Shown here in pieces: positions 9,165 through 29,664 of a stretch of 64,000 nucleotides of DNA (the first letter of the stretch is position 1; each line of letters starts with the position of its first letter). The notes beneath the pieces were generated by a model, which ran no database searches, was not told the origin of the DNA, and worked only from the letters and a program-made list of their open reading frames with translations. A program made the translations under genes and the position numbers. Location: contig JAALGZ010000011.1 of NCBI GenBank assembly GCA_015227615.1, forward strand, positions 1,290,471 to 1,354,470. The letters are read 5' to 3'. The DNA is from Labyrinthula sp. Ha (lineage: Eukaryota; Sar; Bigyra; Labyrinthulida; Labyrinthulaceae).

Positions 9165-10811
9165 CTAGTATCTGCTATAGTTTGGCGTATATAGTGGGTT
9201 AGAATTGTGCAATTCTGTAAATATGCCTGATTGAGGGGAAAGCAGTCCTTCATCATCGGATGGGTAAAACTGGTAATGCACAGTAGCCGATGACAGTACA
9301 CTATTATTGACATACGATGTCTTTAAATCCTGCACTTGTGAATGAGTTGGGCCAACTGAGCTCAAGCTCAAAGGAGGCCTAGAGTGGGCAGTTGAACCAG
9401 CATCAAGGTATCCTATAGATCCAGATGCTGAAATCCTATCCATCAACGTGCCTTGGTCTTGAGAAATTGACCGCAAATATTTTTTCCTGGTTCTTGTATT
9501 TAACTTTGATCGAATTAACAGAACGCACAAAATAGATGCAAGTAGTAGCAGCCCTCCTGTTGAAGCTAATACTAGGAGATCTGTAGCTTCTTGATCACCT
9601 GTTGAGTCACCTTCATTTTCCAAGACTTTGTTCGGAGAAATTGTTGGACTCAAAGTAGGTATATTGGAGTTGGTAGGGGATTCGGTTGAATTTCCCTTGT
9701 GGTCTTGCGTTGGCGAAGAGGTAGGTAAAAATTCAGTAGGATTCAAACTAGGAGATCGACTGGGAGCGAAAGAGAAGGCTTCCGGGGAAGATGTTGGTGA
9801 AAATGATGGATAGTTCGAAGGCACAAAAGTTGGTTGGTTTGTAGGTGCGCTAATCTTGAAGTTTCCCTCGCTATCGAAAATTCCAAAAGCATCTTTTTCA
9901 CCCTCAGAACCCTTCAGTGGTTGATCAACTAGTTCATGCAGAAAGAGATGATTAAGCAGCCCAGAGGAAGTTTGTTCGTCCAGAGCAAATCGTGCTACAT
10001 TTGAAAAATATTGGTAGTTATTCTCTGGTGTAGCAAATTCGTTGCTGCCGAAAGATGGCCATCCCGTTGCGGTAACAACCAACTCCAGATTAAGATTTTC
10101 CCTAGCTAACGCTGCTTGGGTCGCTTGCAGTTGCTGGGTTAACATCTGCATATCTTCTCCAGCAGTAGTTTCCAGTGTAATTGACTCATCATCAAATATT
10201 GTATAGAATGGATATGGATTAACTCCAAATGCGTCAACTTTGGTCAATACTGAGGAATAGGAAGAAATGAAGTCATTTGAAAACTGACCACTCTCTACAG
10301 GAAAACTTACGCTCAAAGTGCCCATACTGCAAGGAATAATGACAGGTACTTGAGGATAGTTATCTTTCAACACATCTACTGTGGCTTCTACATCCGAAGA
10401 ACCGAAACCATTTAAAAAGGGTTCATCTCCAACAACGAATGTTAGAGAGATATCAGGGCGTGTATCGGTAATAGTACTAACTGTGGACTGAAACTCTTCC
10501 AAGATTGTTCCTCTAAACCCTGACAACTGACTGTTTTGAATACCCAAATAAATTTCCTTTAAATTATCCAGAGAGAGAAAGGACGTAATTAATTCTGTCA
10601 CAGAAGAATCAAAGTTGAAGAGTCGAAGAGTATCAACTTTTCCATTGGATTCAAAACCAAGATAGTCTTCTACTGTTCTGAAAAGTTCTTTAGCTTCACC
10701 AACACTGACTCCATTATTATTGTTTTCCAAGTCTACGTTTATACCTAGGCGCCCACCAACAGAGAGTATAAAACAATCGAAAACGAAAAAAAGAATAATA
10801 TATTTCTGCAT
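9165..10811 (-). CDS. GH17-like type I membrane protein, copy 1 (nucleophile lost)
   Basis: 548 aa, intronless. Order: signal peptide (about residues 1-20, hydrophobic FFVFDCFILSVGG), GH17 (beta-1,3-glucanase) domain about 21-318, Pro/Ser/Thr stalk about 319-410 (PTNQPTF, SPTSSP units), membrane span about 411-433 (LLVLASTGGLLLLASILCVLL), and a 115-residue basic then Ser/Tyr-rich tail. GH17 landmarks are clear: GRLGINVD start, VVGDEPF with the acid/base Glu at residue 130, VNPYPFY, and ATGWPSFG. In active GH17 enzymes the residue before TGWPS is the nucleophile Glu; here residue 248 is Ala (codon GCA), so hydrolysis is predicted to be lost. The tail ends HNSNPLYTPNY; NPLY (538-541) fits the NPxY adaptor motif. 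The signal peptide and stalk differ from copies 2 and 3, but the central domain is nearly identical. Confidence 0.9.
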   Translation of the reverse strand: MQKYIILFFVFDCFILSVGGRLGINVDLENNNNGVSVGEAKELFRTVEDYLGFESNGKVDTLRLFNFDSSVTELITSFLSLDNLKEIYLGIQNSQLSGFRGTILEEFQSTVSTITDTRPDISLTFVVGDEPFLNGFGSSDVEATVDVLKDNYPQVPVIIPCSMGTLSVSFPVESGQFSNDFISSYSSVLTKVDAFGVNPYPFYTIFDDESITLETTAGEDMQMLTQQLQATQAALARENLNLELVVTATGWPSFGSNEFATPENNYQYFSNVARFALDEQTSSGLLNHLFLHELVDQPLKGSEGEKDAFGIFDSEGNFKISAPTNQPTFVPSNYPSFSPTSSPEAFSFAPSRSPSLNPTEFLPTSSPTQDHKGNSTESPTNSNIPTLSPTISPNKVLENEGDSTGDQEATDLLVLASTGGLLLLASILCVLLIRSKLNTRTRKKYLRSISQDQGTLMDRISASGSIGYLDAGSTAHSRPPLSLSSVGPTHSQVQDLKTSYVNNSVLSSATVHYQFYPSDDEGLLSPQSGIFTELHNSNPLYTPNYSRY

Positions 10812-11717
10812 GCTTCTCTAACTACACTTCTGTCTTTTTTCTTTAATGCTGATACGAACGGGAAAGTTCTATTTGAGTTTGCTCCAAGTATTTTCCTGTA
10901 TCCAGTTGGTGTTCTCAACCTGGTACAGGACTTACTACAAGTAGTTGTCTCTAACGAAAGAGTTCTCTTGTAAGATTCTTGGGAAAAGCACTCTCGTTAT
11001 CTTGTGAGAGAGATATTTAGGCAAGATTGTTTTCTAGAGTTGTTTCGTTATCTCGTTAAAAATACCTAACCAGAAACCGATCTTTCAATACCAGTACATT
11101 TTTCCTTTATTGCAGTTTTCTTAACGTTATTTATATTTTTGTTTGTGTAATCAAGAGTGACTGTACAGAAGAATTATATTACGGTAAGTTCCGGGTTATT
11201 GATACTGAATCTTATTCAAATAAAGAAGGGTGTTTTAAGATACAGTGAGTTAAGAATTAAGTATTGAGAATGGCTTTTGTAATATGCCCAAGAGAAAGAG
11301 TTGGAGCCCTTTTTTCGAGGATATGTACTTCCAAGACGACTTTTCATATCTAACTATTCACAAAGTTAAATATAAAAGCAGCCCCAAGAAGTTGTCATGA
11401 CCAGAATTCAGATATAGTTTCATGGTTCAAGAAGAGGCAACAACATGTTCTTAGTTTTGAAAGACACACAGGGTAGTGATACATATAGTTTATATAAAGA
11501 GGATAAAAGAATCTAGAAGTGGCATCTAGATTTATTAGAAAGGAGATCTTGTTTTTTCGGTCTGTTGCGACCGGAATTTGAGATAGAATGTTATGAAAAG
11601 AGGAAGCTTCAGCAAGAAGATTGTTTTGTGTAGAATTAGAGTGCAGTTTATGCTAAATAAACATAAAGAAAGAACATAGGAGTTCTCATATATTTTCATA
11701 CAAACTTTAGAAAGAAA

Positions 11718-12784
11718 CTATGCTTCCGAGGATTTGATCTGATGCTTCTTAATGGAATGCAGCTCAGGGCTTGAGTTGAAGCAAAGATTCTGGATTAGTA
11801 TGCTTTCTTCAGACCAGAAGCAGCTTTGTATTGTTATTTCTACTTTGTCAAGATGAGCTGGCTTGGACTGTAATAACATCTCCAAGAGTTTATTTTTAGA
11901 ATTCATACTGGCTCTTTAACAAGAAACATAAAGGGTATCTTTCTGTAACCGTTTAAGCCTATGGCAAAGTTTCTTAACATTAAGATTTCTCAATTCAACA
12001 GCTTCTCCAACTTGCTGACGCGTTTGGATTATGATGGGTCTGCGGTGAAGACAGAGTCCTCGGTTAATGTTGTACAGAACGCAGGTCTCGACAAGAATTT
12101 CCTTACTTAACCCATGTTTTATCCTATATATTTCCTCCCTTGCCATGTTCCAGGTGCGTACGACGTGTCCCTGCCTCATCTTAAAATTACAACAACTAAA
12201 CTTTAGAGATTTGATCTATATTTGCCAAAATTTCAATGATTGAACGCAGAATCCATTCAGATAAGATAGTTTAAAACTGATTGGGCTTTGGTGCAAAGTT
12301 GTTTCTCTGGGTACTTCAAAAAGATACCTACAGAGTGATATTGCACGTCCATTAGGTTCTTGATACCGCAGTTTGACTACAAGCACCTGTAAAGTTGAAA
12401 AATATGTCAAAAAGAAATAGCACTTGACCCCATATGGTAAAAATTCCTCATGGATGCATCTTAAAGCTAGCCCCATACCCTGCTCTGTTGTTTTCAAGAC
12501 ACAATCTTAGCAGAAATTTTCAGGATCATTTTGATTGTTTGTTGTTCTCAAGCAGGGTATGCCCTCGGAGATTGAGGTACCTGAATAGAGATTCATGTCA
12601 TATACACCTGTGTAGCTTGACAAAAAACTCCAAAATTGAAACTGTACTTGCCAATGATGCGAATCATATTTTTTAACGCGACAATATTTCTAAATCGCAA
12701 ACGAAGATGAGCTAATAAGTATCCGTCTAAATAGCGTAGGAGATGGCATATATTCAAACTTAGTTCAACCTTCTTCCGGGTCAA
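11718..12784 (-). pseudogene. Possible degenerate or unresolved coding region
   Basis: Within AT-rich DNA this stretch is visibly GC-richer and has a chain of minus-strand open frames in different phases: about 12784-12593, 12497-12216 (KLRYQEPNGRAISLC), 12179-11916 (an 87-codon ATG frame, MRQGHVVRTWNMAREEIYRI) and 11906-11718. Short GT...CAG stretches of plausible intron size lie between some of them, for example 27 nt near 12583-12609. No arrangement I tried gave one continuous recognisable protein. It could be a decayed gene or transposon, a fast-evolving gene with tiny introns, or chance. Confidence 0.25.
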
Positions 12785-15700
12785 ATGTTGCTACCTTCTA
12801 TTATAAGCATATATATTTTTCATTCACACTTAGGACTCAACTGTACAACCGTGAATGGTTTCCCAAAATTTAACAAACCGAGCAAAACCTTGGTTCGCCC
12901 TATGTAGCGTGATTTAATAATCACTACCCCGAACGGATGCTGAACGGGAGCAGGTAAATTCGCAGTGCAGTAAATGCGCTAAGTAGTACAGCAATGAAGC
13001 ATTCACTACATGAGCAAGATGAGAAGACTTGTTTCAAATTAAGGTGATTTTTAGGCTGATAGTACAAGTTTATTGCCCTCGCTACCCAAGTCTTGAACCC
13101 TTATCTATAATCGAAAGAGATGGAACTCAAAATCAAACTAAAAGAGCTTAAAACATTTGACCGGCTTAAATTTAAATGTACACAGTATTTTAACACCGCC
13201 GTATGGGTTAGGTATATTTTCTTAATTTTTTCGGGGGCTTCTCGGATACGTTTTCTTAAACTGTCAAAGTGAAATACTATAAAAAAAATGGATATGAGGC
13301 GGCACTGTTTGGATATTAAGAATACGACTGCTTTCTCTACTCAACTTTTCCGTATGCTTCAACATACAGTCTGGAATTAGTATTATTAATGCTACAAGCC
13401 ATGGTTTTCCTAGCAACTTCTGCACGGTATAAATCCTGCTTAGATTGATGATCTAGGTATGTTCAAATAAATCAAAGCAAACAGTAGTTTTTCATCGAAT
13501 ACATCTTTCAGATTCAAAGATTGTTCCATACGCAACTCCCTTTATTAATCAGAGCAGAAGTGCAACATTTTGAGATAGACACCATTTCCCTTATGTGAGT
13601 CAACGTAATAGTTATTTGCAAAGATTTTCACCAACGAAAATGACAAAATTCCCCCAAGAATGAGTATATTGTATCAGTTCAATTGGCGCATGACTGCTTA
13701 TCTGCTTAGTTTGAAATAAGACTTGGAGTGTTATATCTAGATGTTACCGATGAAACACATTCCCATAATGCTAGGATTCAAAACATGTGTCGTAATTCAT
13801 CGAGTGCAATCGTTCCATTGAAATTTGATATTAAAGATTTAAAAATTTTCCGAGCTATAATTTTGTTTTCTTTAATGTGTGAAATTAAAACTGTTTTGGA
13901 TTTACTTAGATAAAAAAAAAATGCTTAGCAGGGAGCTATATATGCGTTGGTTCACGCTAATACTAGTACTCTAGCAGCAACATATAGTATTAAATGAATC
14001 CTTTCAACAAATAATTGAGTGACTGATACTCAGTTTTTCAACCTGCTATGGGATATGATACACACCATCTTCATCTACATTTTGAATCCAGGTAAGGTGC
14101 TACCCACAACTGAATAATCCTGGTACGCATAGAAAATCTTAAAATATATTCCCTAAAAGCCCAATACCGGATATTCTAGATATAATTTGCGGTGTGAATT
14201 GATTCGCTAAGACCCTAATTTTATCTGAAGAGTTCAGCAGCTCTATTCCACGTTCTAAATGCTATATATAAACATAAGCGACTCAAGCTCTTTTCTGAAT
14301 AAATATACAATAGCAAACCAGCTTTCCTTCACTATGACGCAAATCATACTGCAATCTTTTTATTTCCATAACATATAGAGACATTAATTTAAATAAAAAT
14401 ACAAAAAGCTTGTATATCGCTAGAATTTTGTAATAAGTGTTGTATGAGCCAAGAAATTACATCATGCTCAGCCTAAGGTTCACTGTAGTCCATTTATATG
14501 TCTAAATGCACGTTTTCAATATCTGGCCAATACGGAACGTATGCTGGATAGTTAATAAACCAATCTAATTTAAAATAACCATTCAAGTTATGTCACTACC
14601 TATCTGTATTGAAAGCAATATTTGTTGTTAACTGTTAGAATTCATAGTTTTCGTTAAATCTCGCCTCTACTCTTTTCAAATCTGCAGATAAAAATGCTAT
14701 ACATGTGCTTCTAGTCTTTAGAGTAAATATGCACCAGCTATTAATTTCAATATCTGTGGGTAGCTAAAAGGATAAAAACCAAATTGATCAGAGATCTTTG
14801 GTAGCAACATTTGATATTCTAAGGTCTGCAGACGACGCTTTATTTAAGGGGCAAGAACGGATATGCTTTATATGAACTCATTTACAACATATCAACTTAA
14901 CTCTAGTTCCAATTACTTCTGAATATCATCATAAATTAGATGAAATTAGGATAAGTATTATTTTTACCTTTATAAAAAATGTCACTAGTTATTAGTATCT
15001 GGTAATCACCATATTCAGATCGTGTGGCTCAGCTGAGCTTCGCTTATGTAAGACCTCCTTCTTCTCTACTGGATGAAACAGGTTGACTTTTTAATTTTAG
15101 CTTAAAATTTTATACTAGGTGTCTTTACATTTTCATAGCATAATACTCCATTGCTGGTTTATTAGATAATTTGTCACTTTCTCATTAGTTCTGAACACTG
15201 TAAGTATTCAAATCAACTGAATATATGGAGCGATCCATACCCGATGAGTTTGCACCTTTCCAAACTAAATTAAATATAACTAAGGCTTTTAACTGATGAT
15301 TAAATACGGTTGCACCACTATCGTGCGTTCTATACATTGAACTTGTACCGTGGTTTCGTCATCCTTGATTGGGTCAGTAGAAATAATTATTTTCTAATTT
15401 TGAAGCATTGGTGAACAACATGAAGATGTAGCATCGAAGACAGTTTATGGAAGGATTTATTATCTCTTAATTAAATGCAGGAAAGTTGTAGCTAAAGAAA
15501 ACATGAAGAGAAACCAAACATCTTTCAATTCTGTAATCTACGACGAAATACTTGGAGGGGGTAGTTTTAGCATTTGGGTCGGTAGTAAAATACTTAATGC
15601 AGTACTTTCTAAGGAGAAACTTGATGAAAAGCTATAATCTACATTTTGAAGAACTGGAATATTATTCAAATCTAACATTGATGTCGCATCAAAATATCAA

Positions 15701-17222
15701 CATATGAAAACTGAATCACTGAAGTTTATTATATTAACCCATATTCTTAGATGTTTATTCTTGATAAAGAATATGATGTCTTGTTTATCTTACATTAAGC
15801 AGATCCTATCAGTGATTCTTTTTTATCAAATTTTTAAATAATCTAAGAAGTTAAGTTCAAGTACCGGTAGTTAATTTGGTGTACCTAAAAAAAAAATCTT
15901 ACTTCAAAATCTTCTCTAGTACCTTTTTTCCGTTTAAATATTGAAAACGCATGTGTTAAAGTTGCTCTACTCTCAAATGCTTATACAAACATGAGCTTTG
16001 AGCTAGTCTTGTAGTACCAAGATGATTCAACTTGTTTACATATATGATTTAATAACCCTTAAAACATAAAATTAATGTGGTCTCAAATTATTGTCTTAGG
16101 GTAAAGTTTTTTAGTATAGTAGCTCTAATTGCTCATTTACTGCTCTCAAAGTTAAAGTAAATCTCTCAGAGATTTCAAGTAGCCTTCGTACTTGAACAAA
16201 CAACAATTCCTTATATATTTTAGAAAAGGTAAGTTGTATAAGTTTGAATGTAATGGCAGGTAGACGTCGTGAAGTATTGTTTTTCACAAATAGAACAATC
16301 TGTGCTTGGCTAAAAACAAAAGTCTACTTTAACTTCATATGGGGCAAGTTGCTTCAAAAAATCATTCACTCTATTGCTAAAGTGCATCGACTAAATTGGT
16401 TGAGATATTCATCTATAATTGATAGTGAGACGTAGCTCACTAAATTTTAGCTGTATGTTAAAGGCCTAGCAATGTTAATATTAATAGCCAGTACTAATAT
16501 TAGATAGAGATCAAGGACATAAGCTGCTTTCGGTGTATAAACTTTCACAATCTTGAGGGAAAACGAATGGTTTATTGTATCATTAATAAAAATATAAGGT
16601 GCTTATTTATATTCAGCCTCGAATTTTTCCAGAGAAATTCTTTGTTCAAGAGTTCGATTGGCCTTGATGAATTTCTTGATCATTCAAACAAGAATTAAAT
16701 ATTCAAACAAATCAAATCGTGAACATATCAGGGTATAAAGTGAATTTGTCTAGCTTAATTTTGCATTTTGATTTAGTATAATTTTTTGTAATTCACCAGT
16801 TCTAAAACATATCATTTTTCTTAGCACTATTCGTTACAGTTGTTAATCACACAATTCGCAAGAATTTGTGACCACAACTTATCACATATATATCACCAGA
16901 TATCTATATGCAAGTGTCAAATACTTCAACTAAGAATTTTTGACTAATTTAAGCTATGTAAAAATAAATAGAGAAAAACCTAAACTTTTTCTATTTTACA
17001 AATCCATGTTATAGAAACTAGATATGAGGTTTAACCAGTTAAAAACAACAATTCCTTTCCAAATATTTTTAGCTTTGATTCACTAGATCACATTCAAGCT
17101 AGTAAAAATTTATATAAGCTCCTTGGCCCAGCGGATAATTGACGTCATATAAACATATGTATTGTTTAATTTGTTTTTTGTTTCTTAATATTACGGAAGC
17201 ATGGTTTTCTTGTAATCTGTTT

Positions 17223-17278
17223 GCCACGTCGACTAGCCTTTTATATTGTATCAATTCCGCCATATCTAGCCGTTAAGC
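17223..17278. promoter_or_regulatory. Conserved 3'-flank motifs of GH17-like copy 2
   Basis: GCCACGTCGACTAG (17223-17236) and TATCTAGCCGTTAAGC (17263-17278) also occur, in the same order and 27-nt separation, at 26090-26145. They lie 187 and 191 bp beyond the stop codons of copies 2 and 3. They survive in flanks that have otherwise drifted, which suggests a 3'-end signal or a relic of the duplication unit. Confidence 0.4.
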
Positions 17279-17422
17279 AAGATAAAATTTTGAAAAGATA
17301 AATTCTGTTTGATGATTAGGAAAAGAAGATATCATATAATAGAGACATCGCACTTGGAAACTTGAGAATAAAACTACACGTTTTGTTAAATACTACATAT
17401 GACTTTTGAACTAGACGGAAAA

Positions 17423-19540
17423 TTAGTTACTATATCTATTGGCGTATAAGGGATTGGAGTTGTGCATGTGTGGTAATAGTCCTGGTGGTGACGGTAGTGA
17501 TGCTCGTACACTCTCTTCATCTTCTCGCTGAAAACGATAATGCACAGCGGTTCTTCTCCCGCTACTGTTCAAGCCATGTGAAGTTTGATGATCTATAGGC
17601 TGATTTGGAGCTGAGCCGACAGAATTTAAGCTTCCTGCCGTCTGATAAGCTGTAGGTATACCAAAATCCATGTAGCTCATTGATCCCGAACCTGAACTAT
17701 TCCCTCCAAAAGTCCTCTGCTTTTGGGAAATAGTTTTCAAATATCTTTTTCTATTCCGGGTTTTAAGTCTTGATCTTACTAGAATAAGGCCCAAAACAAT
17801 TGCAAGTAAAAATAACCCACCTGAAGAAGCTACCAACAACACATCTGTTGCTGAATCTTCAGGATTATTTTGTCCTTCATTTCCAGATATTTCAACAGGA
17901 GAACTTGTAGGAGTCAAAGTTGGAAGGTAGAAATAGCTGGGTGATGGTGTAGGGGTGTCATCACCTTCATTTGTTGGAGATAAAGTTGGTTGCTCAGGTG
18001 TTGGGCCCAAAGTAGGGGAAGCGGTGGGGGTATCCGAGGGTGCTGGTGTAGGCGACAAAGTTGATTTTGGAATTGGAGAGGATGTCGGTGTCAGTGTTGG
18101 GAATGAGCTAGGGAATGGTGTTGGTGAAATTATAGGACCCGAGGTAGGAAATAGTGTTGGTGAGAATGTTGGTATTCTGGTTGGAGATGAACTCGGGAAT
18201 GTTGTTGGAGAACTAGTTGGTACTAGCGTTGGAAAAGGAGTTGGCAAAGGCGTTGGAGAATGGGTTGGACCTCTTGTAGGAAAATTAGTTGGATTAGGGG
18301 TGGGATTCTTTGAAGGAGAGGCAGTTGGTACTAGTGTTGGAAAGGGAGTTGGCGCCGGGGTAGGTGATTTGCTCGGGTTTCTTGTAGGAAATTTAGTTGG
18401 ATTAGGGGTGGGATTCTTTGAAGGAGAGGCAGTTGGTACTAGTGTTGGAAAGGGAGTTGGCGCCGGGGTAGGTGATTTGCTCGGGTTTCTTGTAGGAAAT
18501 TTAGTTGGACTAGGTGTAGGATTCTTTGAAGGTATGGTAGTTGGGAGAAAAGTTGGCTGGTTTGTAGGTGCGATAATCTTGAAGTTTCCCTCGCTATCAA
18601 AAATTCCAAAAGCATCTTGTTCAGCGTCTGAGTCTTTCAATGGTTGATCAACCAGTTCTTGAAGAAAGAGATGATTAAATAACCCAGAGGAAGCTCGCTC
18701 GTCAAGAGCAAATTGTGCCACATTCGAAAAATATTGGTAGTTATTCTCTGGTGTAGCAAATTCATTGTTGCCGAAAGATGGCCATCCCGTTGCAGTAACA
18801 ACCAACTCCAGATTAAGATTTTCCCTAGCTAACGCTGCTTGGGTCGCTTGCAGTTGCTGGGTTAACATCTGCATATCTTCTCCAGCAGTAGTTTCCAGTG
18901 TAATTGACTCATCATCAAATATTGTATAGAATGGATATGGATTAACTCCAAATGCGTCAACTTTGGTCAATACTGAGGAATAGGAAGAAATGAAGTCATT
19001 TGAAAACTGACCACTCTCTACAGGAAAACTTACGCTCAAAGTGCCCATACTGCAAGGAATAATGACAGGTACTTGAGGATAGTTATCTTTCAACACATCT
19101 ACTGTGGCTTCTACATCCGAAGAACCGAAACCATTTAAAAAGGGTTCATCTCCAACAACGAATGTTAGAGAGATATCAGGGCGTGTATCGGTAATAGTAC
19201 TAACTGTGGACTGAAATTCTTCCAAAAATGATCTCCGAAATCCAGATAACTGATTATTTTGAATACCCAAATAAATTTCGTTTAAATTTTCTAAAGAGAG
19301 AAAGGACGTAATTAATTCTGTTACAGAGGAATCAAAGTTGAAGAGTCGAAGAGTATCAACTTTTCCATTGGATTCAAAACCAAGATAGTCTTCTACTGTT
19401 CTGAAAAGTTCTTTAGCTTCATCAACACTGACTCCATTATTATTGTTTTCCAAGTCTACGTTTATACCTAGGCGCCCACCGAAACAAAGCTGGGAAAACA
19501 AACAAATCACAGAATACACCAAGACCACAACTTTCTTCAT
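17423..19540 (-). CDS. GH17-like type I membrane protein, copy 2 (long stalk)
   Basis: 705 aa, intronless, the longest of the three. Signal peptide about 1-21 (VVVLVYSVICLFSQLCFGG), GH17-like domain about 22-320, a Pro/Thr/Ser stalk of about 240 residues, a membrane span about 566-588 (LLVASSGGLFLLAIVLGLILV) and a 117-residue tail. The acid/base Glu is kept (VGDE, residue 132), but the nucleophile position before TGWPSFG is Ala250. The stalk carries a 36-residue repeat (SKNPTP...FPTLVPTASP), encoded by near-identical 108-bp DNA units. The tail ends HNSNPLYANRYSN (NPLY at 696-699) and shares SSGSGSMSYMD and AVHYRFQREDE with copy 3. The signal peptide is identical to that of copy 3, and the 5' flanks are homologous for about 300 bp, so copies 2 and 3 are the closest pair. 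I infer a cell-surface glucan-binding protein on an extended, probably O-glycosylated stalk. Confidence 0.9.
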   Translation of the reverse strand: MKKVVVLVYSVICLFSQLCFGGRLGINVDLENNNNGVSVDEAKELFRTVEDYLGFESNGKVDTLRLFNFDSSVTELITSFLSLENLNEIYLGIQNNQLSGFRRSFLEEFQSTVSTITDTRPDISLTFVVGDEPFLNGFGSSDVEATVDVLKDNYPQVPVIIPCSMGTLSVSFPVESGQFSNDFISSYSSVLTKVDAFGVNPYPFYTIFDDESITLETTAGEDMQMLTQQLQATQAALARENLNLELVVTATGWPSFGNNEFATPENNYQYFSNVAQFALDERASSGLFNHLFLQELVDQPLKDSDAEQDAFGIFDSEGNFKIIAPTNQPTFLPTTIPSKNPTPSPTKFPTRNPSKSPTPAPTPFPTLVPTASPSKNPTPNPTKFPTRNPSKSPTPAPTPFPTLVPTASPSKNPTPNPTNFPTRGPTHSPTPLPTPFPTLVPTSSPTTFPSSSPTRIPTFSPTLFPTSGPIISPTPFPSSFPTLTPTSSPIPKSTLSPTPAPSDTPTASPTLGPTPEQPTLSPTNEGDDTPTPSPSYFYLPTLTPTSSPVEISGNEGQNNPEDSATDVLLVASSGGLFLLAIVLGLILVRSRLKTRNRKRYLKTISQKQRTFGGNSSGSGSMSYMDFGIPTAYQTAGSLNSVGSAPNQPIDHQTSHGLNSSGRRTAVHYRFQREDEESVRASLPSPPGLLPHMHNSNPLYANRYSN
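18293..18508 (-). repeat. Two 108-bp tandem units in the GH17-like copy 2 stalk
   Basis: Units 18293-18400 and 18401-18508 are almost identical in DNA. Diverged partial units flank them on both sides, including a related one toward 18540 that is shared with copy 3. The unit is in frame and encodes 36 residues of PT-rich stalk, so unit gain or loss changes stalk length without a frameshift. Confidence 0.85.
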
Positions 19541-19860
19541 TTTGCTGACAGAGTCTCTTACGCAACTTTATGAAAACAAAACTATCTATCTTGCTTTCTA
19601 AAATCTTTTGTTTATTGGTTTATTTTTGGTCCTTTCTTGAATGTTTTACCTTTATGGTTCTTATAATAAACTATAAGCACATAGGATATACTAGATTTAG
19701 CTGTATTTTGTAATATTAGGATTCCTACTCAGTATATCATTAGTTTCCGGGCATTTAGTAAAAGAAAACCAAATATTTGAATCCTAATAAACTCGTGCAA
19801 CCATCGAAACTGTGTTCTATCTTCTCCACAAGAAGAGTTGAAGTATGGAACGAGTTTATA
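19541..19860 (-). promoter_or_regulatory. Shared 5' flank of GH17-like copy 2
   Basis: About 300 bp directly upstream of copy 2 aligns by eye with 28049-28350 upstream of copy 3. The match begins with the 25 or so bases before the ATG and includes TAGTTTCCGGGCA and CAACCATCGAAACTGTGTTCTAT. Copy 1 lacks this block. It is the likely promoter and 5' untranslated region, carried along in the duplication. Confidence 0.55.
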
Positions 19861-20051
19861 CAGTGCTGTATTTTCTTATTGAATCTAACGGTATCTACCG
19901 GGAGTCGCTTTCTAAATATTTTTGTTACCGTTACAATCGCTACAAGAACCTTTAAGAAAAAACGGATTCGCTTGAAAGAGAGTGGTTAAATAAAAAATGT
20001 AAATATTTTAAAACCTGTTTCTATTGCGAAAAGAATGTAGTTCAAAAGTAA

Positions 20052-20273
20052 TTTCGTATCTGTAAGGAAGAATCAAGCTCGCACCCGGAAGACCAAAAGT
20101 ACTTTGCGAGATGGAACGAGATCCCCCAACATATGAAGCAAACCTGGAAATACCTAGAATCTCAAGGAAAAAGCGAGAATGGGATATCTAAAATTGATAG
20201 CCTCGTGAAAACAGAACCTATAAAGATTCTAATTCGAGGTTTTATACGAACATCCTTAGGATTGGAGTTATGA
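20052..20273 (+). pseudogene. Possible gene fragment resembling part of an HMG box
   Basis: A 73-codon frame without an ATG near its start, open between TAA (20049) and TGA (20271). It reads EDQKYFARWNEIPQHMKQTWK followed by YLESQGKS. The pattern F-x2-W...K-x2-W-x2-L recalls the second half of an HMG box, though too little is present to be sure. It lies in the segment of the copy 2 promoter region that has no counterpart upstream of copy 3, so it may have come in with an insertion. Confidence 0.25.
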
Positions 20274-21100
20274 CTGTGGAGCTTAATGTTCCGCTAATTC
20301 CTATGACCAAAACATAATTGAACCATACAATATTTTTATTCAGCATTATATGTTGATGGAAAATTATAGTTTCATTTCCCTTCAAATTGCATAAAATTTA
20401 TGCACGTCCACAGAAATAGAGCATTCTTGCTACTAGGAGTGCAGGATGAGTTTTCATTGAGGTCCTTGAGCTTCATGACTGAGTGTTCGTGATTCTGAAA
20501 ATCGTGAAAACTAGTTTCAGTGAGTTTGGCAGTGGGGATCCTCAATTCTTCAATGAGAATCTCTCCTCTGTCTGTGCCCCATTGATCGCACAGCTTAGCT
20601 AAGAAAATGCTGGAATTAGCACCTGGCAGATGTGTATCAGATCGCTGGATGCAAAATTTGGTATATTGCAGCAAGAAAACATCCTCTATTTCTAATAACT
20701 TGTTGTTTGTTTTTACAAAAGGAAGTTGTATTACTTCTTGTCTAGGTTTAGTCTTGATTTTATAGAAATGAAGGTGTTGAGTTTGAAAAATCTCCCATGA
20801 TACGGGTAGGTACTGTTACTTATCGTGTTTGACATATTACCGTTACGTATCGGTATTCCAATTCAGGGTAGTAACCTGTGATATTCCTACCAAGGGATCT
20901 ATTGTGTGTTTTTATTGGAAACGGAATGAATTCTACTAATCAGGATAATCCGATAAGAAACTATACTTTAGAGTATTGACCAAAAGCCGTCGTTTTTACT
21001 CTCGGTTTGTATTTGACTGATTTTTTTCTTATTGTTCTATATACACCCCAGTTTATACACTAATACAGTTTTAACTAGGTAGTGCAATCGGAGAGTTTAT

Positions 21101-21181
21101 ACTAACGTTACAAAAGAAAACACTTTTCTGAGCCAGGTGTAACTAACGTTAGAAAATGTATTTACGTTAGTACTAACGTTA
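21101..21181. repeat. Cluster of ACTAACGTTA palindromic sites
   Basis: ACTAACGTTA occurs at 21101-21110, 21142-21151 and 21172-21181. CTAACGTTAG (21143-21152) is a perfect palindrome, and ACGTTAGTACTAACGT (21164-21179) is a perfect 16-nt palindrome. The cluster lies about 1.6 kb upstream of GH17-like copy 2. It looks like a multi-site binding target for a dimeric or Myb-type factor, which is inference. Confidence 0.5.
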
Positions 21182-24100
21182 CCATTGTGAAATTTTTAGT
21201 TTTTGGCTCTGAATGGAGATATCTCGCCTGAATTGTTATTCATTGGTTATATATATCGTGAAGAAATATTCTCGAAATATTTTTTTGTAGATATACTTAA
21301 AATAAAGTTAACATCACGTGATATACACCATTGGAAAGTTAAATAATTGCCTAAGTGGTTAGTAGATATAATATCATTTTGTATAAGGTTAAATTTGTGA
21401 TATGTAAGTTTATCAAGCAAAATCCCAAAGAAAATAATGTATATCGATATTTATCTGAGTAAAATGGAATTTGTAAGCAAGTGTTTCGCCTTTTTACGCA
21501 AAATAAATACGTAAGGTACTTTAACTTAACTCTTCTAACCCAATGTTTGTTCTATTTGAGCTTTATAGAAATTCATTTGTAGCTAAACTTGCCATTTCGA
21601 TACTTCCAAAACATTTTTGAGTTCTCGTAACAATTCTCTTCTTTGTATGTTGTATTTAATTTTTCTATTAATGTTATCATCAGACATGAGACATATCAAA
21701 AAAATATATCTAACAGCATGCTTTTATTCTTTTAAGATTTTATTCATTTAAGTTGCTTTTCCATTCTATTCTTTTCAGGTCAACCTGTGTTTTCGGTAAA
21801 TTATCAAATAATTACATAGCTTATTCCTCGATATTTTTTTTGCTTAATGAGAAACAAAAAAACAGTTTCTGAGAGTTCTTTCAAATATCTTTCTATCCAT
21901 ACAAGATAACAGAAGATTTGAAATAGTTTACTTCGTGTAGAACACCAAATACCACGAAAATATTGTTCATTCTTTGTACATTGACCAGAAAATAATGAAG
22001 AAAAAAGTTAAATTACCTCTGTAAACTTTCAACGTTAACTTTTATATTCAAGTTAAACCTAGTAATAAACAATGTTGTTTTCTGGCTTTTGTTATTACGG
22101 GGTAGTGAAAACTTTATCCACGATTTTTTCAGAAATGCAGTATAATGGCCATAAAATCTACAGTACCTTTTTAACTCTCCTACAAAGCTCTAAACATATT
22201 GCAAACTTAACGTAGTACTTACTCACATACAAATTTAGAGGATTAAAACAATATAAAGTATAATAAAACCATGATTACTGAGAATAACGCCTATAGTATT
22301 TCTTAGTTTTTGTCACCAAATCTTCCTCAAATATAATATTATCATCCAAAATATGTTTCACATAAGGAAAACCTTTCCAACCATATGTTTTGTCAAAGTA
22401 TTTGATAAGGATGAGTATTTTGAACCCAAGACAAGGCTAATTTTAAGGGTCCTTTTCACTAAGTCTACAGATCTCTAAAAAAACATACATTCAAACGTAA
22501 CATAACGAAGAACAACTCTATAGATGATCTGACACCTGTCATACCCTAGATACTCACCATACCTAGCTTCTGAAACCATTTCTCAGGATGTTTCTTCTCT
22601 GGTTAATTTTAACTGAGCTAAGCTTCACACAGAAAAGTCAAATGTTGAAAATTTGCACATCTGAAAATACCAAATCAGTTAGTTTTGCTATAATCCCCTA
22701 AGTTCTTGTACTAGGAAGGCCCCAACAACTAAAAACACGACCTGTATCCTTTAATTCTGTATTTTAGGATATTTTGAAAGTTATTTTTAAAGAAAAGTCG
22801 ATATTGGGCTAAAATGCTGTTTTTATCAACTTCAATCCGTCTAATACCTCGAGAAATAATCGTCTAGAGCCCAAACAGACGTCACCAGTCGAAAGTAAGG
22901 GTGAATTTAGGTCTAGAAACAAGTTTGTTTGAGAATTGAAGTATTCTGTATAAACTTTCTAACAATGTATCATATTTCCAAGATCTCAGAAACTCTGAAG
23001 GATACCCTTAAATGTCCAATATTCCTGAATGGGTGATACCATGTAACAAAACATTCGGAAAAATGGTAATCACCCATAGGTATGGATGATTTAGGTTTTC
23101 TCCGAGTTCTGTTCGAGAAAATTCCAAGCACTTCCTTATTAATCTCAGCAATAGTTATTTCACTTAATTTAACTTTACACCAAACTCAACTTTAAAATAG
23201 CTAAAACTGAGCTACTAATAGTTCAAATATCAAAAACTTTGACTTTAACTATATCTATAATCAATTTCTAGTAGCTTAGAAGAGAAAAAATAAACTTTGA
23301 AGTTTTCATTGGTTTTATTTATACAAATCTCTGTCATATTATTGCAAATTCTTATATAAAAGCTCTTGCTTTTTTCTAGTTGTATACATGGTAAGATATC
23401 CAGAAATTTTGGTTAATTAAGAGAGGTTATAAAACATTTAACTACATAAGATATATGTTATTAGTTTTCAAAATAAAATATATTAAAATCGCTTTTTAAA
23501 CGTATTCCAGGATAAAAGTTGAATCCTTGTATTTAATACTGAAACAACCTAATCCTTGATTTATAAAACATACTTACTATCACTTTATTTCTGAGGTTTT
23601 TTTATTCTGATATGCCTTTTCTGGTTCAAAACATTAACCCTCGGTTTATTTTCATACTTCTTGGCTGAACAACATTATTCATTTCAACAAGTAAACAATA
23701 AGTACCCACATTAACCACCAAGTGAAACCATTTTAAGAAATACAGAAAGGGCTTTTATTACAGATGAAATAGAATAAATGATCCATAAGCTCATAGATTT
23801 GATGCTGGATTAATCTAAGATCGAGGTAGAAAACTGTTCGAAGCTGACACAGAACAAGAAAAGAGTCAGGTTGGAATTCTACAGAGAGCTAGAGGAAATA
23901 ATATTATTTTTGGTGGAGAAGCAGCAGTAAAGTAAAATATCTAAATATCCAAAAAAGTTTTCTAATTAAACTGCAACATATCTTGAGAAAATTGCTATTA
24001 AATATGTCAGTTAGAGTTAGACTTTCGTATCTAGAATTTTTTGTATTATTAGCCTTGTATTCACGCACTCTAAAAGTAGTATCAATGACAGAGTTTCTTT

Positions 24101-26089
24101 TTTTTTGAATGACACTAATGCTAACATTTAATAACCACGTATTTCTAGGCTATTTTTCTAATCATTTATCAAAATGTTATTGGGATAATGTCAACATGCC
24201 TTTGTTCTCTGTCTCATTTTAATGCTATTCATTCAAAAAATGCTGCTACTAGCTAAAGTTTCGTTACCGTATGACTGGCAATTACATGAGGGTATATAAA
24301 ATTACTCTAACCGCAATATAACTTGATTATTATACCTTATTAAGTCGATTTGCAGGTATTTTATAGTGAGCGTAACTACAATATACATGTTGATGTTTCT
24401 ATCCGTAAAATGTCAGGTAACATGGTGAGCTCCATCAGTTCTATAAATTTAAGACTAAGAAAAGCTTCCAAGTACGAAAATGTGAGTATGCCATTGTCTC
24501 TTACCAGGTTGCTTTATTTAAAAAATATTAATACGTTTAACCTATCAAACATGTTAGCTCATTGCGGCAGATCACATTTAATCAATCAATTGGTCAGGTT
24601 TTCGGGAGAGGATGCTAATTGCCGATGTATCTTCTAGGGTTAGCTCAATCTTCTTTGTTTATATTACTTAGCAACTATGCCATGGTTTAATTTGTGCCTT
24701 GTTCTGGGACATTTTGTTACTTGAAACTTTATTAAATAGTCGTTAAACTAGGATTTATCCTTAATAAGTGTCACTATATTGCTCACTTAAAAATGTTTGT
24801 GTAACAGTCTCTAGTAAAATAATAATAAACGCTTGATTTCTTGGAAAGTGATATCAAGATCTCTGAAAAAGTAATGGCAGAGCTATGAGCCTTAACTAAT
24901 TTCTCTCAAAAAGTAGAGCTACTAAATTTTATACCATAAATTCTACTAAGCATTTCTTAAATTTGAAGCACGTAGTTGCAGTTAATCCTATCTATTGGTA
25001 TACAAACAAAGAAATACTACTTTAACAAATGGATCAGGCGTCTGGTCTATACGATGAGACAGACTCCTTTAAGACAAATCAAAATCTTGAACTTAGTTTC
25101 TAATTACAGTGGAAGAGTGGGAAATTTTTTAAAATCTTGGATGTTCTAATAGTGGAAGATTTGTTTCTGAATCCATGCAGTAAGTATAATGCTTTTGTTT
25201 TTTTCGGTTTTAAGGTTGCATAAGGATTATAGTTTGTCCTTTTAAAGATGTTAGTAAACACCTGGTTGGGCTTTATAAGGAGATTTTTATCTGGGATAAC
25301 TGTAGTACAGCTTATTAGAAATAGCGCTACAAGTACCTTAAAATAACGATCTTGTTTCAATATTTTTCTTCTTGAACGATGTCCAGCTCATCGTAACATA
25401 TCTTTTATTCGTCTTCATGTTTTATTCTTCAGCTTTATTATGCTTTCGAAATAGCTCTAGCGACCTCCTTTCCAGCTTATAGCTGCAATGAGAACTCCCC
25501 TTTCTGAATTCCTTATCTCTTTTTTTTAGAGTTCCTCGGTTCTATATTAATGTTATTGACTGTAGTTTATTGGTTTATTAAAATTGAACACTAGGTGATC
25601 CAGATTGAAATGTGTTTCAAAAAATTAATAACCGGAGAAAACATTCAACTGGATTTTTACCACTTGTAGCCCTTGTAATATTTAGATGCTTCTTCTTCAT
25701 TTAGATAGGCTTCTCAAAAACCTTTGTCATTCTCCAAAGGATCAAGAAACATTTTACTCTACCCCTTTTCTTAGGGAAAAGAAGTTTTTCTTTGGTATTA
25801 GTTATCTGTGTCAATCACAACCCTTTTTTAGTTGTCTTGCCCTGTCTACAGTTGTTACGTTATAAAATGTTTTAATCACGCATGAATAAAATGTTTATGT
25901 TAAGTTACTCAATCGACAATAATTATCTCATTACGCTTAAGACAGCAGCATCTTACCAAAGGGCAAGGTTCAACTTAGTAGATGCTAGTCCACCTCTACT
26001 AGCAGCCTCTAGGCTGCGGAACTAGGCTTCTCTCATTCAAGCACACGTACTTATGTTTTTTTGTATTATTATTTCTGTTCCAATATTCT

Positions 26090-26145
26090 GCCACGTCGAC
26101 TAGTCTCAAACGTTATACCGGTTTTCACTTATCTAGCCGTTAAGC
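26090..26145. promoter_or_regulatory. Conserved 3'-flank motifs of GH17-like copy 3
   Basis: GCCACGTCGACTAG at 26090-26103 and TATCTAGCCGTTAAGC at 26130-26145 repeat the pair found at 17223-17278, at nearly the same distance from the stop codon. Confidence 0.4.
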
Positions 26146-26293
26146 GCAAGAAATTGTTGACAAGAAAAGATATTCCCCTCTAGAGATAAAGATAAGAAGA
26201 AGCCATAAAATACAAGCCCTTAACTGGAGAGAACAAGAGCTAATATACACTTTTTCCTAAATTCTACATACGAATTTCTGATTAAACGAAAAA

Positions 26294-28048
26294 TTACTTA
26301 TGATACCTATTGGAGTATAAGGGATTGTGCACTGGTGTTAATGACCGTGCTGGTAGGGTTGGTAAGCTGTCTTCATCCTCTCGCTGGAAACGATAATGCA
26401 CAGTAGTATCTCTTCCTTTACTGTTCATGCTGTAAGAAGTTCTGTGTTCCATTGGTTGATTTGTAGCAGGACCGACAGAATTTAAACTTATTTGCTTCTT
26501 GTAACCTATAGGTAAACTAAGATCCAGATAGGTCATTGACCCCGAACCTGAACTATTACCCTCATAGGTCATTTGCTTCTGCGAAATTTTATTCAAATAT
26601 ATTTTCCTATGACGTGTGTTTAGTTTTGATCGAACTAAAATGATGCATAAAACACTTGCAAGGAGAAACAACCCACCGATAGAAGCTAATAACAACAGAT
26701 TTGTATCGATTAGATTTGAATCGACCTGGCCCCCATTGCCAGCCACATCGACCGGGGAACCAGTGGGAATCAAGGTCGGAGAGTGTATGTTATTGGGTGA
26801 TATTGTCGGGGTTTCGCCAGCTTCATTTGTTGGTGATGACGTAAACGGCACTTCGGTGGGGTCAAAACTCGGTATTGCATCAGGTACTTCGGAGGGGAAA
26901 GGGGTCGCTGAAGTACTGGGACTGGATGAAGGAACTGCTGTTGGTAGTAGTGTTGGAAAGGGAGTTGGCACCGGGGTAGGTGATTTGCTCGGGTTTCTTG
27001 TAGGAAATTTAGTTGGACTAGGGGTAGGATTCTTTGAAGGTATGGTGGTTGGGAGAAAAGTTGGCTGGTTTGTAGGTGCGATAATTTTGAAGTTTCCCTC
27101 GCTATCAAAAATTCCAAAAGCATCTTGTTGAGCGTCTGAGTCTTTCAATGGTTGATCAACCAGTTCTTGGAGAAAGAGATGATCAAATAACCCAGAGGAA
27201 GTTTGTTCGTCCAGAGCAAATCGTGCTACATTCGAAAAGTATTGGTAGTTATTCTCTGGTGTAGCAAATTCGTTGCTGCCGAAAGATGGCCATCCCGTTG
27301 CAGTAACAACCAACTCCAGATTAAGATTTTCCCTAGCTAACGCTGCTTGGGTCGCTTGCAGTTGCTGGGTTAACATCTGCATATCTTCTCCAGCAGTAGT
27401 TTCCAGTGTAATTGACTCGTCATCAAATATTGTATAGAATGGATATGGATTAACTCCAAATGCGTCAACTTTGGTCAATACTGAGGAATAGGAAGAAATG
27501 AAGTCATTTGAAAACTGACCACTCTCTACAGGAAAACTTACGCTCAAAGTGCCCATACTGCAAGGAATAATGACAGGTACTTGAGGATAGTTATCTTTCA
27601 ACACATCTACTGTGGCTTCTACATCCGAAGAATCGAAACCATTTAAAAAGGGTTCATCTCCAACAACGAATGTTAGAGAGATATCAGGGCGTGTATCGGT
27701 AATAGTACTAACTGTGGACTGAAACTCTTCCAAAAATGATCTCCGAAATCCAGATAACTGATTATTTTGAATACCCAAATAAATTTCGTTTAAATTTTCT
27801 AAAGAGAGAAAGGACGTAATTAATTCTGTTACAGAGGAATCAAAGTTGAAGAGTCGAAGAGTATCAACTTTTCCATTGGATTCAAAACCAAGATAGTCTT
27901 CTACTGTTCTGAAAAGTTCTTTAGCTTCACCAACACTGACTCCATTATTATTGTTTTCCAAGTCTACGTTTATACCTAGGCGCCCACCGAAACAAAGCTG
28001 GGAAAACAAACAAATCACAGAATACACCAAGACCACAACTTTCTTCAT
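26294..28048 (-). CDS. GH17-like type I membrane protein, copy 3 (nucleophile lost)
   Basis: 584 aa, intronless. It has the same signal peptide as copy 2 and a GH17-like domain nearly identical to both other copies. A shorter PT stalk (about 325-440) keeps one of the 108-bp units and then diverges. A membrane span lies at about 450-472 (LLLASIGGLFLLASVLCIILV), followed by a 112-residue tail ending HNPLYSNRYHK (NPLY at 575-578). The acid/base motif VGDE is kept (Glu132) and the nucleophile site is Ala250 (codon GCA), as in the other copies. FDSSDV replaces FGSSDV just after the acid/base motif. The tail shares GSGSMTYLD, SLNSVGP and TVHYRFQREDE with copy 2. The loss of the nucleophile therefore predates the duplications or was spread by gene conversion. 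Role inferred: surface binding of beta-glucan or a related polysaccharide. Confidence 0.9.
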   Translation of the reverse strand: MKKVVVLVYSVICLFSQLCFGGRLGINVDLENNNNGVSVGEAKELFRTVEDYLGFESNGKVDTLRLFNFDSSVTELITSFLSLENLNEIYLGIQNNQLSGFRRSFLEEFQSTVSTITDTRPDISLTFVVGDEPFLNGFDSSDVEATVDVLKDNYPQVPVIIPCSMGTLSVSFPVESGQFSNDFISSYSSVLTKVDAFGVNPYPFYTIFDDESITLETTAGEDMQMLTQQLQATQAALARENLNLELVVTATGWPSFGSNEFATPENNYQYFSNVARFALDEQTSSGLFDHLFLQELVDQPLKDSDAQQDAFGIFDSEGNFKIIAPTNQPTFLPTTIPSKNPTPSPTKFPTRNPSKSPTPVPTPFPTLLPTAVPSSSPSTSATPFPSEVPDAIPSFDPTEVPFTSSPTNEAGETPTISPNNIHSPTLIPTGSPVDVAGNGGQVDSNLIDTNLLLLASIGGLFLLASVLCIILVRSKLNTRHRKIYLNKISQKQMTYEGNSSGSGSMTYLDLSLPIGYKKQISLNSVGPATNQPMEHRTSYSMNSKGRDTTVHYRFQREDEDSLPTLPARSLTPVHNPLYSNRYHK

Positions 28049-28350
28049 TTTGCTGACAGAGTCTCTTACGCAACTTTATAAAAACAAAACTATCTTTCAA
28101 TCTTTCTACAACCTTTTTTCACTTTATTTATTTTTTTATGGTTTTTATATTATGGTTCTTAAAATTAAGTATGAGCATATAGGCTATACGTGTTTTCGCT
28201 GTATTTTCTAATATTAGAATTCCTACTCAATATATCTTTGGTTAGTTTCCGGGCAAAACATTATTGAAAACCAAATATCTGAAACACTCGTACAACCATC
28301 GAAACTGTGTTCTATTTAAGTCCAAAAGAAGAGTTAAAGTTTGAAACGAC
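28049..28350 (-). promoter_or_regulatory. Shared 5' flank of GH17-like copy 3
   Basis: Homologous by eye to 19541-19860 upstream of copy 2, with the closest match in the first 40 bp and around TAGTTTCCGGGCA and the block near 28290-28320. Probable promoter and 5' untranslated region. Confidence 0.55.
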
Positions 28351-29664
28351 ACAATACAGTACATATTCTGACCGAAACTTTTCTCTCTTCCTTTTGGAAT
28401 ACGTTTTATTCTATTTTCGGGAATACTTGTTCTATATACATCCCGGTTTATTAATTATAGTATTTATAGTATATAACGTAAGGCTATAGTTAAACAAACT
28501 ACTTAGACAATAATTCCATGGCAAGCGCAGAATAATTCTAAACATAAAGAAAATTTTATCAACTATTTTGTTCTAGTGCTAAGGTTCGAGCAAAACTCAA
28601 GAATACTTTGTATATCTTAAAAAAATTACTTTTTAAGTGCCATTGGAGCCAAGTTGTATAGGATGTCTTATGAAGGTCAAGTTTAGCAATGACGAACAAG
28701 CTTTATGCTCGTCGTATAAGTTAAATTGTAATTATTAAAGCATATTTGCTCACGGAAAGGAACGCTATACCTATTGGTCCAATGTTTTCTTAGCCTTCTG
28801 CTTCCTCTCTGTTCTTTGTACATAACACATCTCAACAGCTGTTTGCTAGAATAGATATCGACCTCAAAAGTACATAATCCAAGATCATATACACTAGAGA
28901 ATTCCTTAGGATCTGTATCGTTTCCTTTAGACATGAAACATGCCTAGACTTAACTATAAGCTTTAAAGCCTTAGTGTCTAGACACTCTAATCTCTAGCCC
29001 ATTATATCCTTTCTTTTCTAATGCCTCCACCCTTTTATTGTTTCGTATGGTTTATAACTTTCAAATTTTCTATGCAGAATCTTTGATATGACTATAAACT
29101 TTTTTCAATATGATTTTTTCTATATACTGGAACTAGATAAAAGATTTTGTTACTGTTCAACGATATTAATATTCTTTTGTAACATGGTATACATACTATA
29201 CCCAATTGTTGCTTCATAACGTTAGGTCTTTAACAATATTTATTTCCAGAGTAGCGACAATGTACCTAATTCCGTGTGCAAACTTTCATGATAAAAGCCG
29301 AGAGGTAGGAGTAAGATAGGAAAAACACACGATGTTATCGAACACATACTATCGATAAACTTTCGATAAACCGGTTTTCACAATTTGATAATACAGATAA
29401 ATTTTGTTCATTCTTTTTTAGTACTAAAGTGGCTTTACAATTGCGTCGAGTGTTGTCTTAGAATGTTATTCTCTTATCGATGGGTTATTGATAAGTTATG
29501 TTTCCGCTTCTTCAACAAGAAGAAACCGGGAGATGGTTTTGATTAATAGCTTATCGATATCAAGATAGCATCGTCCAGGGCAAACCGATAGACACAGAAA
29601 ACTTTGGGTTTTCCACGTGTATATGGAATCTTGGTAACAGGTGCACCTCCTTTTAACTCGTGTT

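Follow-up and report, generated by a model that had tools for sequence, protein, structure and literature searches.

The question raised by the DNA described here is whether three neighbouring genes of glycoside hydrolase family 17 (GH17) still encode enzymes or have been turned to another use. The window, meaning the whole stretch of 64,000 nucleotides that was analysed, makes up the final 64 kb of contig C13. The genes, named W1, W2 and W3, lie on its minus strand, one open frame each (9165-10817, 17423-19567 and 26294-28075), and share a common order: an N-terminal hydrophobic leader, a GH17 barrel, a stalk rich in Pro, Thr and Ser (PT stalk), a single span and a tail. An earlier reading of the letters alone (the sequence-only reading) had described this layout in three copies, with tails of 112-117 residues, and it was found again in W1-W3. 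All three proteins exceed the curated Pfam cut-off of 28.2 bits for the GH17 profile PF00332, and an NCBIfam scan of them gave no match. Leaders and spans were called by hydropathy only, without a signal-peptide or membrane predictor; the value given for each span is the mean hydropathy of the hydrophobic 19-mer that follows the leader. The features are as follows, genes running from first Met to stop.

9165..10811, minus strand: W1, putative stalked pseudo-GH17 receptor, 548 residues, open frame, PF00332 38.2 bits
9855..10751, minus strand: W1 GH17 barrel, residues 21-319, by alignment with solved GH17s
10422-10424, minus strand: W1 acid/base Glu130, by alignment
10068-10070, minus strand: W1 nucleophile position, Ala248, by alignment
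9570..9854, minus strand: W1 PT stalk, 95 residues, from the translation
9513..9569, minus strand: W1 predicted membrane span, hydropathy 2.45
9168..9512, minus strand: W1 tail, 115 residues, NPLY at 9189-9200
17423..19540, minus strand: W2, putative stalked pseudo-GH17 receptor, 705 residues, open frame, PF00332 37.1 bits
18578..19474, minus strand: W2 GH17 barrel, residues 23-321, Glu132 at 19145-19147, Ala250 at 18791-18793
17834..18577, minus strand: W2 PT stalk, 248 residues, with a 108-base tandem repeat (2.9 copies) at 18215-18532
17777..17833, minus strand: W2 predicted membrane span, hydropathy 2.53
17426..17776, minus strand: W2 tail, 117 residues, NPLY at 17444-17455
26294..28048, minus strand: W3, putative stalked pseudo-GH17 receptor, 584 residues, open frame, PF00332 37.0 bits
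27086..27982, minus strand: W3 GH17 barrel, residues 23-321, Glu132 at 27653-27655, Ala250 at 27299-27301
26690..27085, minus strand: W3 PT stalk, 132 residues, from the translation
26633..26689, minus strand: W3 predicted membrane span, hydropathy 2.69
26297..26632, minus strand: W3 tail, 112 residues, NPLY at 26315-26326

The catalytic residues of the barley enzyme are given as Glu94 and Glu231 in the excerpted text of PMC11080057. In the numbering of barley 1ghs the aligned GH17 sites are Glu94, Glu231, Glu279 and Lys282. At the nucleophile position, Glu231, the window proteins carry Ala248, Ala250 and Ala250, encoded by GCA in each, and the TGWPS that follows is unbroken. This Ala aligns with the Glu of CJP38 (TESGWPS) and with the Ala of 4gzi, which we take to be the potato nucleophile mutant. 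The acid/base Glu (barley Glu94) is present as VGDE in W1, W2 and W3 (Glu130, Glu132 and Glu132). Both residue assignments of the sequence-only reading, Ala at 248, 250 and 250 and a kept VGDE, are thus borne out by alignment with solved GH17 structures. The fold model that it had also proposed was made for the W1 barrel with AlphaFold2 from a 42-row alignment, and a barrel like those of solved GH17s was recovered (mean predicted local distance difference test, pLDDT, 68; predicted template-modelling score 0.72). The first two Foldseek matches were the potato (3ur7) and banana GH17 beta-1,3-glucanases, with E values of 4.9e-7 and 4.7e-6 and query template-modelling scores of 0.57 and 0.61; ranks 3 and 4 were beta-glucuronidases and rank 5 was a barley GH17, other barrels following close behind. 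The solved structures found by W1 sequence were plant glucanases in five of five cases. The model hence supports the GH17 family and a (beta/alpha)8 barrel, and not the details of the cleft.

Genome-wide searches, which covered the 50.8-Mb eukaryotic assembly in 153 contigs, placed the three genes in a larger family. The GH17 profile found at least 11 places, all 11 first-look candidates being scored: the three window genes, two tandem genes on contig C106 (C106a and C106b), single-domain genes on C66 and C81, and a four-domain protein on C66. When all 11 domains were aligned, Ala stood at barley Glu231 in the five of five genes that have stalk, span and tail, and the nucleophile Glu stood in the six of six other domains, which have no stalk, span or tail; the split goes beyond chance. 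The acid/base Glu is kept in C106a and the three window members and is gone in C106b (ISEK), which has also lost the Lys of the DEN..K motif. The trio seen before therefore stands for the window but understates the family, which has at least five genes at two loci. The four-domain protein (L011:2412-6287) is a 1290-residue frame whose tandem GH17 domains all have the nucleophile Glu, and by eye its short hydrophobic C-terminus resembles a glycosylphosphatidylinositol-anchor signal. When the GH17 alignment was used to search contigs of prokaryotes and of viruses, it gave 32 and 21 matches to the pattern, respectively, and none of these was confirmed as a relative.

A tree was built from 22 rows, namely 10 of the 11 genome domains (the four-domain protein entered without its domain 3, which nearly duplicates domain 2) and 12 of 39 aligned bacterial GH17s; the bacterial rows had been fetched by a pattern requiring Glu and are uninformative on how often Glu is lost. 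All Ala rows fell on one side of a branch with 100/100 support, so that a single loss suffices, and the branch to this clade is long (1.13). Ratios of nonsynonymous to synonymous substitution (dN/dS, NG86) for the barrel were 0.154-0.171 between the window genes and C106a (dS 1.4-1.5), 0.07-0.12 between the window genes and C106b (dS 2.2-3.5, saturated) and 0.29 between C106a and C106b. The barrel has been maintained as a protein, under purifying selection, since the nucleophile was lost.

The explanation that best accommodates these results, with a probability of roughly 0.6, is that the Ala clade consists of stalked, single-span GH17 pseudoenzyme receptors, or receptors for adhesion or uptake, that bind beta-glucan, one sensor being kept on several tails. 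On this view the GH17 barrel, formerly a hydrolase of beta-1,3-glucan, would now serve for binding, its nucleophile Glu having changed to Ala a single time, in an ancestor common to all five genes. It would hold a beta-glucan chain uncut at the end of a rod-like PT stalk. The receptor family of pseudoenzymes proposed in the sequence-only reading gains from the membrane-anchored receptor layout, the purifying selection and the absence of both catalytic Glu in C106b; its lack of activity, glucan ligand, membrane topology and tail function are what we infer. The relatives of the barrel being beta-1,3-glucanases, beta-glucan is the first candidate for its ligand, and glucan binding would be expected from fold and kin only. 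A search for the GT48 glucan synthase gave no match, its positive control being silent too, and with no such match the evidence leans towards a ligand from outside the cell; the glucan would probably come from food, prey or host, and less likely from the cell's own wall.

Instead of beta-glucan, a re-used dead GH17 scaffold might bind something else, be it a protein, a different glycan or, in recognition between cells, a copy of itself, and the old cleft would then be idle. This is unlikely, although it is the alternative with most in its favour: of the 135 alignment columns invariant in the Ala clade, 43 carry a residue seen in none of the five Glu rows used for comparison, the long branch implies much change after the loss, and in C106b both catalytic Glu have gone. 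Against it, 29 of the same 135 columns are identical and invariant in the Glu rows too, among them those of TG.P..G, which surrounds and follows the nucleophile position.

The three window barrels are much alike, and self-comparison resolved the likeness into two tracts.

9825..10757, no strand: W1 homogenised tract, 95.1% identical to 18548-19480 and 95.5% to 27056-27988
18419..19864, no strand: W2 longer tract, 93% identical to W3 26927-28360

The W1 tract, of 933 bases, extends only 30 and 6 bases past the edges of the barrel. Between W1 and W2, identity in 75-base windows was 39-47% for the five lying upstream of the barrel, 84-100% for the twelve full windows of the barrel itself (five consecutive ones at 100%) and 43-62% over most of the stalk and tail; with W3 included, and windows of at least 60 bases, the figures were 36-47% in the five just upstream and 43-68% over stalk and tail. 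At four-fold sites the barrels of the three window pairs differ at 11/125, 9/127 and 3/127 (2-9%), versus 15/25, 17/28 and 14/36 (39-61%) in span plus tail, with Fisher p values of 6.8e-8, 1.7e-9 and 2.7e-8. The C106 pair has no such contrast (33/73 in the barrel versus 5/12 in span plus tail, p = 1). Because the W1 barrel is bordered by diverged DNA on both sides, gene conversion is indicated rather than simple duplication or a single crossover: the three window barrels have been homogenised by gene conversion ending near the barrel edges. Codon constraint, or a triplication that happened very recently, might be called upon instead, the more so as the tract shared by W2 and W3 takes in upstream DNA, leader, barrel and the start of the stalk. 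Such an origin is improbable, since W1 is about 95% identical to both over its 933 bases and diverged on either side, and since the C106a and C106b barrels differ from that of W1 at 40/90 and 40/75 four-fold sites, so that the codons are not frozen. As the window barrels are near copies by conversion, their three Ala count as one event; the earlier statement that Ala occurs in all three is true and is not independent evidence, which leaves the conclusion unaffected. In the receptor explanation, conversion would preserve the likeness of the three barrels as their stalks and tails drift apart, and one ligand could thereby be read by several outputs.

That the proteins are still enzymes, through a substitute carboxylate, as transglycosylases or by a substrate-assisted route, is very improbable. 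In favour of this, the acid/base Glu persists in four of the five members, but the nucleophile is Ala in all five, and C106b has lost the acid/base residue as well while its barrel stays constrained. Moreover, in barley GII a change of the acid/base residue alone (E94A) left no reaction products, according to the excerpt of PMC11080057. Decaying duplicates or an assembly artefact, to which the near-identity of barrels within one cluster might point, can scarcely be credited. Each of the five frames stays open past stalk and span to the end of the tail, the dN/dS of the barrels lies far below 1, and the copies have distinct stalks, tails and flanks; the same Ala also recurs on a different contig, in a second locus whose synonymous sites have diverged strongly.

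The tails are far less alike than the barrels: in the six pairs that were counted, identity over span plus tail ranges from 24 to 64%, and tail dN/dS was 0.23-0.74 in the 8 of 10 pairs where it could be computed. Each of the five tails has NPLY near its C-terminus, the sole 4-mer common to all, and a second conserved spot, [VL][HR]Y[RQ][FY], lies about 25 residues upstream of it. Among 38 other frames of the genome in which a PT stalk is followed by a hydrophobic span, NPxY occurs in one (L017). Tails of the NPxY type are tied to uptake or adhesion in other protists (PMC2843621) and in integrins (PMC6450878), as far as the excerpts of these papers go, and the conserved NPLY might likewise couple the receptor to uptake or to the cytoskeleton. 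FERM_M was found at five genome places, one of them a MyTH4-FERM frame with an IRS-type phosphotyrosine-binding (PTB) lobe, on contig C57 (L169:2694-4097).

Several observations weigh against the receptor explanation or weaken what had seemed to speak for it. Confidence in the W1 model is moderate, and its residues 1-36, with pLDDT below 50, are unreliable. The change of Glu279 to Gln (DQP), considered as a second sign of decay, was dropped: Gln is usual there in the aligned bacterial GH17s, Q277 and P278 being nearly invariant in an alignment of 39 bacterial and 3 window rows, and the DQP of the Ala clade is accordingly not counted. None of 20000 shuffles of the tails shared any 4-mer, a test that ignores common descent. 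A Pfam scan of the tails found no kinase and no other domain. Genome searches for PTB (PF00640) and talin-type I/LWEQ (PF01608) domains gave no match, their positive controls being silent too; a talin-type reader of NPLY, which was considered, has no I/LWEQ match to support it, though the control was silent. Finally, a Pfam scan of ten other stalked proteins left seven with no ectodomain match.

These other stalked proteins came from a search of the genome with W1, which gave 57 matches, 14 in GH17 genes and the rest in PT-rich frames elsewhere. Around the non-GH17 matches 37 loci were fetched, holding 47 PT-rich frames, 38 of them with a stalk and then a hydrophobic span by criteria of our own; 9 of the 38 belong to repeat arrays (L031 and L032). 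The ten scanned proteins included one with NPP1 and ricin-B domains and two with CBM1, and these three speak for the receptor explanation. The first belongs to a trio of closely placed genes on contig C143, in which the domains were identified by the Pfam scan of L015 only, L029 and L030 being assigned by likeness.

L015:1264-3135: NPP1 + ricin-B gene with PT stalk, span and short tail
L029:1447-3255: the same layout
L030:1267-3402: the same layout

In this trio, where the contrast was spotted by eye before counting and is not a blind sample, four-fold differences were 27/152, 23/150 and 9/161 in the ectodomain and 7/13, 8/9 and 9/12 in span plus tail (p 0.006, 7e-6 and 3e-8). The stalked NPP1/ricin-B family thus shows the same contrast of alike ectodomains and diverged tails as the window GH17 genes. 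It is possible, though doubtful, that a paired-receptor system exists in this probably unicellular eukaryote, made of clustered, stalked, lectin-like receptors in which conversion confined to the ectodomain holds the sensor alike among neighbours and the tails diversify towards different outputs, and that it employs two unrelated ectodomains, the dead GH17 and NPP1 + ricin-B.

Comparison with known systems shows which parts of this picture are new. GH17 endo-beta-1,3-glucanases (barley GII 1ghs, potato 3ur7 and CJP38) belong to the same sequence family and share the predicted barrel, the acid/base motif and TGWPS, whereas W1-W3 have Ala for the nucleophile Glu and in addition a PT stalk, a span and a tail. 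Of the GH17 proteins of Phytophthora parasitica, 2 of 20 have a predicted C-terminal span (PMC4176579); in the excerpt of that source they are treated as glucanases, and the C-terminal span is the feature in common. Tobacco CHRK1 is a plasma-membrane receptor whose chitinase-like ectodomain is inactive for want of a Glu (PMC10573068, in excerpt). CHRK1 is a plant protein with an intracellular kinase; the genes described here are GH17 and non-plant, have a short NPLY tail and form a cluster with conversion. The chitinase-like ectodomain of CHRK1 is presumably GH18. In the paired receptors CD300A and CD300C, as an excerpt of PMC12447643 describes them, the extracellular domains are homogenised by conversion, the tails differ, and CD300A has a linker rich in Pro, Ser and Thr. 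The three window pairs resemble them in homogenised ectodomains and diverged tails, but CD300A/CD300C have an immunoglobulin fold, serve primate immunity and send opposing signals that are known, while in the GH17 genes the tails differ and might signal differently. Trichomonas BspA-like proteins and integrin beta chains also carry an NPxY-type tail on a surface protein, in the excerpts cited above for such tails; their ectodomains are unrelated to GH17, and the talin-type I/LWEQ search mentioned above, with its silent control, gave no match here. No GH17 pseudoenzyme receptor was found in the open-access literature searched, as far as its excerpted text extends. What is new here is the GH17 version of a dead-hydrolase receptor; the kind of receptor (CHRK1) and ectodomain conversion (CD300A/CD300C) are already known. 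The 'undescribed system' announced in the sequence-only reading is hence reduced to a new variant; that reading had overlooked the conversion confined to the ectodomain, the NPLY of the tails and the larger group of PT-stalked proteins encoded in the genome. If the glucan-receptor reading is true, the GH17 cleft could be converted into a glucan sensor, as the chitinase-like domain was in tobacco. Moreover, two stalked families unrelated to each other show conversion confined to the ectodomain, which suggests that the principle of paired receptors, known from vertebrate immunity, arose also in a probable protist, where it would be testable as one ligand read by several tails.

Further stalked proteins differ in their ectodomains. 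Two single-span proteins (L025:1525-2958 and L026:1360-3138) carry CBM1, the fungal-type cellulose-binding domain, on a PT stalk. One PT-stalk protein (L161:283-4368) has weak matches to reprolysin-type metallopeptidases, and in another (L158:1944-4766) a weak XK-related match comes after leucine-rich repeats. The repeat arrays L031 and L032, at the ends of contigs C127 and C102, are long, with several overlapping open frames, and their PT-rich frames continue into Leu/Phe/Gln-rich ones.

On the nature of the organism, genome searches gave no match for silicon transporters (the control appeared only below the cut-off, in a Bacteroides), for light-harvesting-complex families (control positive in Synechococcus) or for the oomycete marker elicitin (positive control silent too). 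A diatom or photosynthetic nature, which was considered, is unsupported by a silicon-transporter or light-harvesting-complex match. The 18S rRNA, about 1603 bases (L014:53-1655), lies on the 10000-base contigs C49 and C56, its internal spacers being just some 72 bases long; it is divergent, its best match in the plasmid collection being 77.8% over 83%. In the window itself, long open frames on the plus strand at 17937-18647 and 26613-27131, largely Gly/Val-rich, are antisense to the W2 and W3 stalks, whose codon make-up most likely gives rise to them as a by-product.

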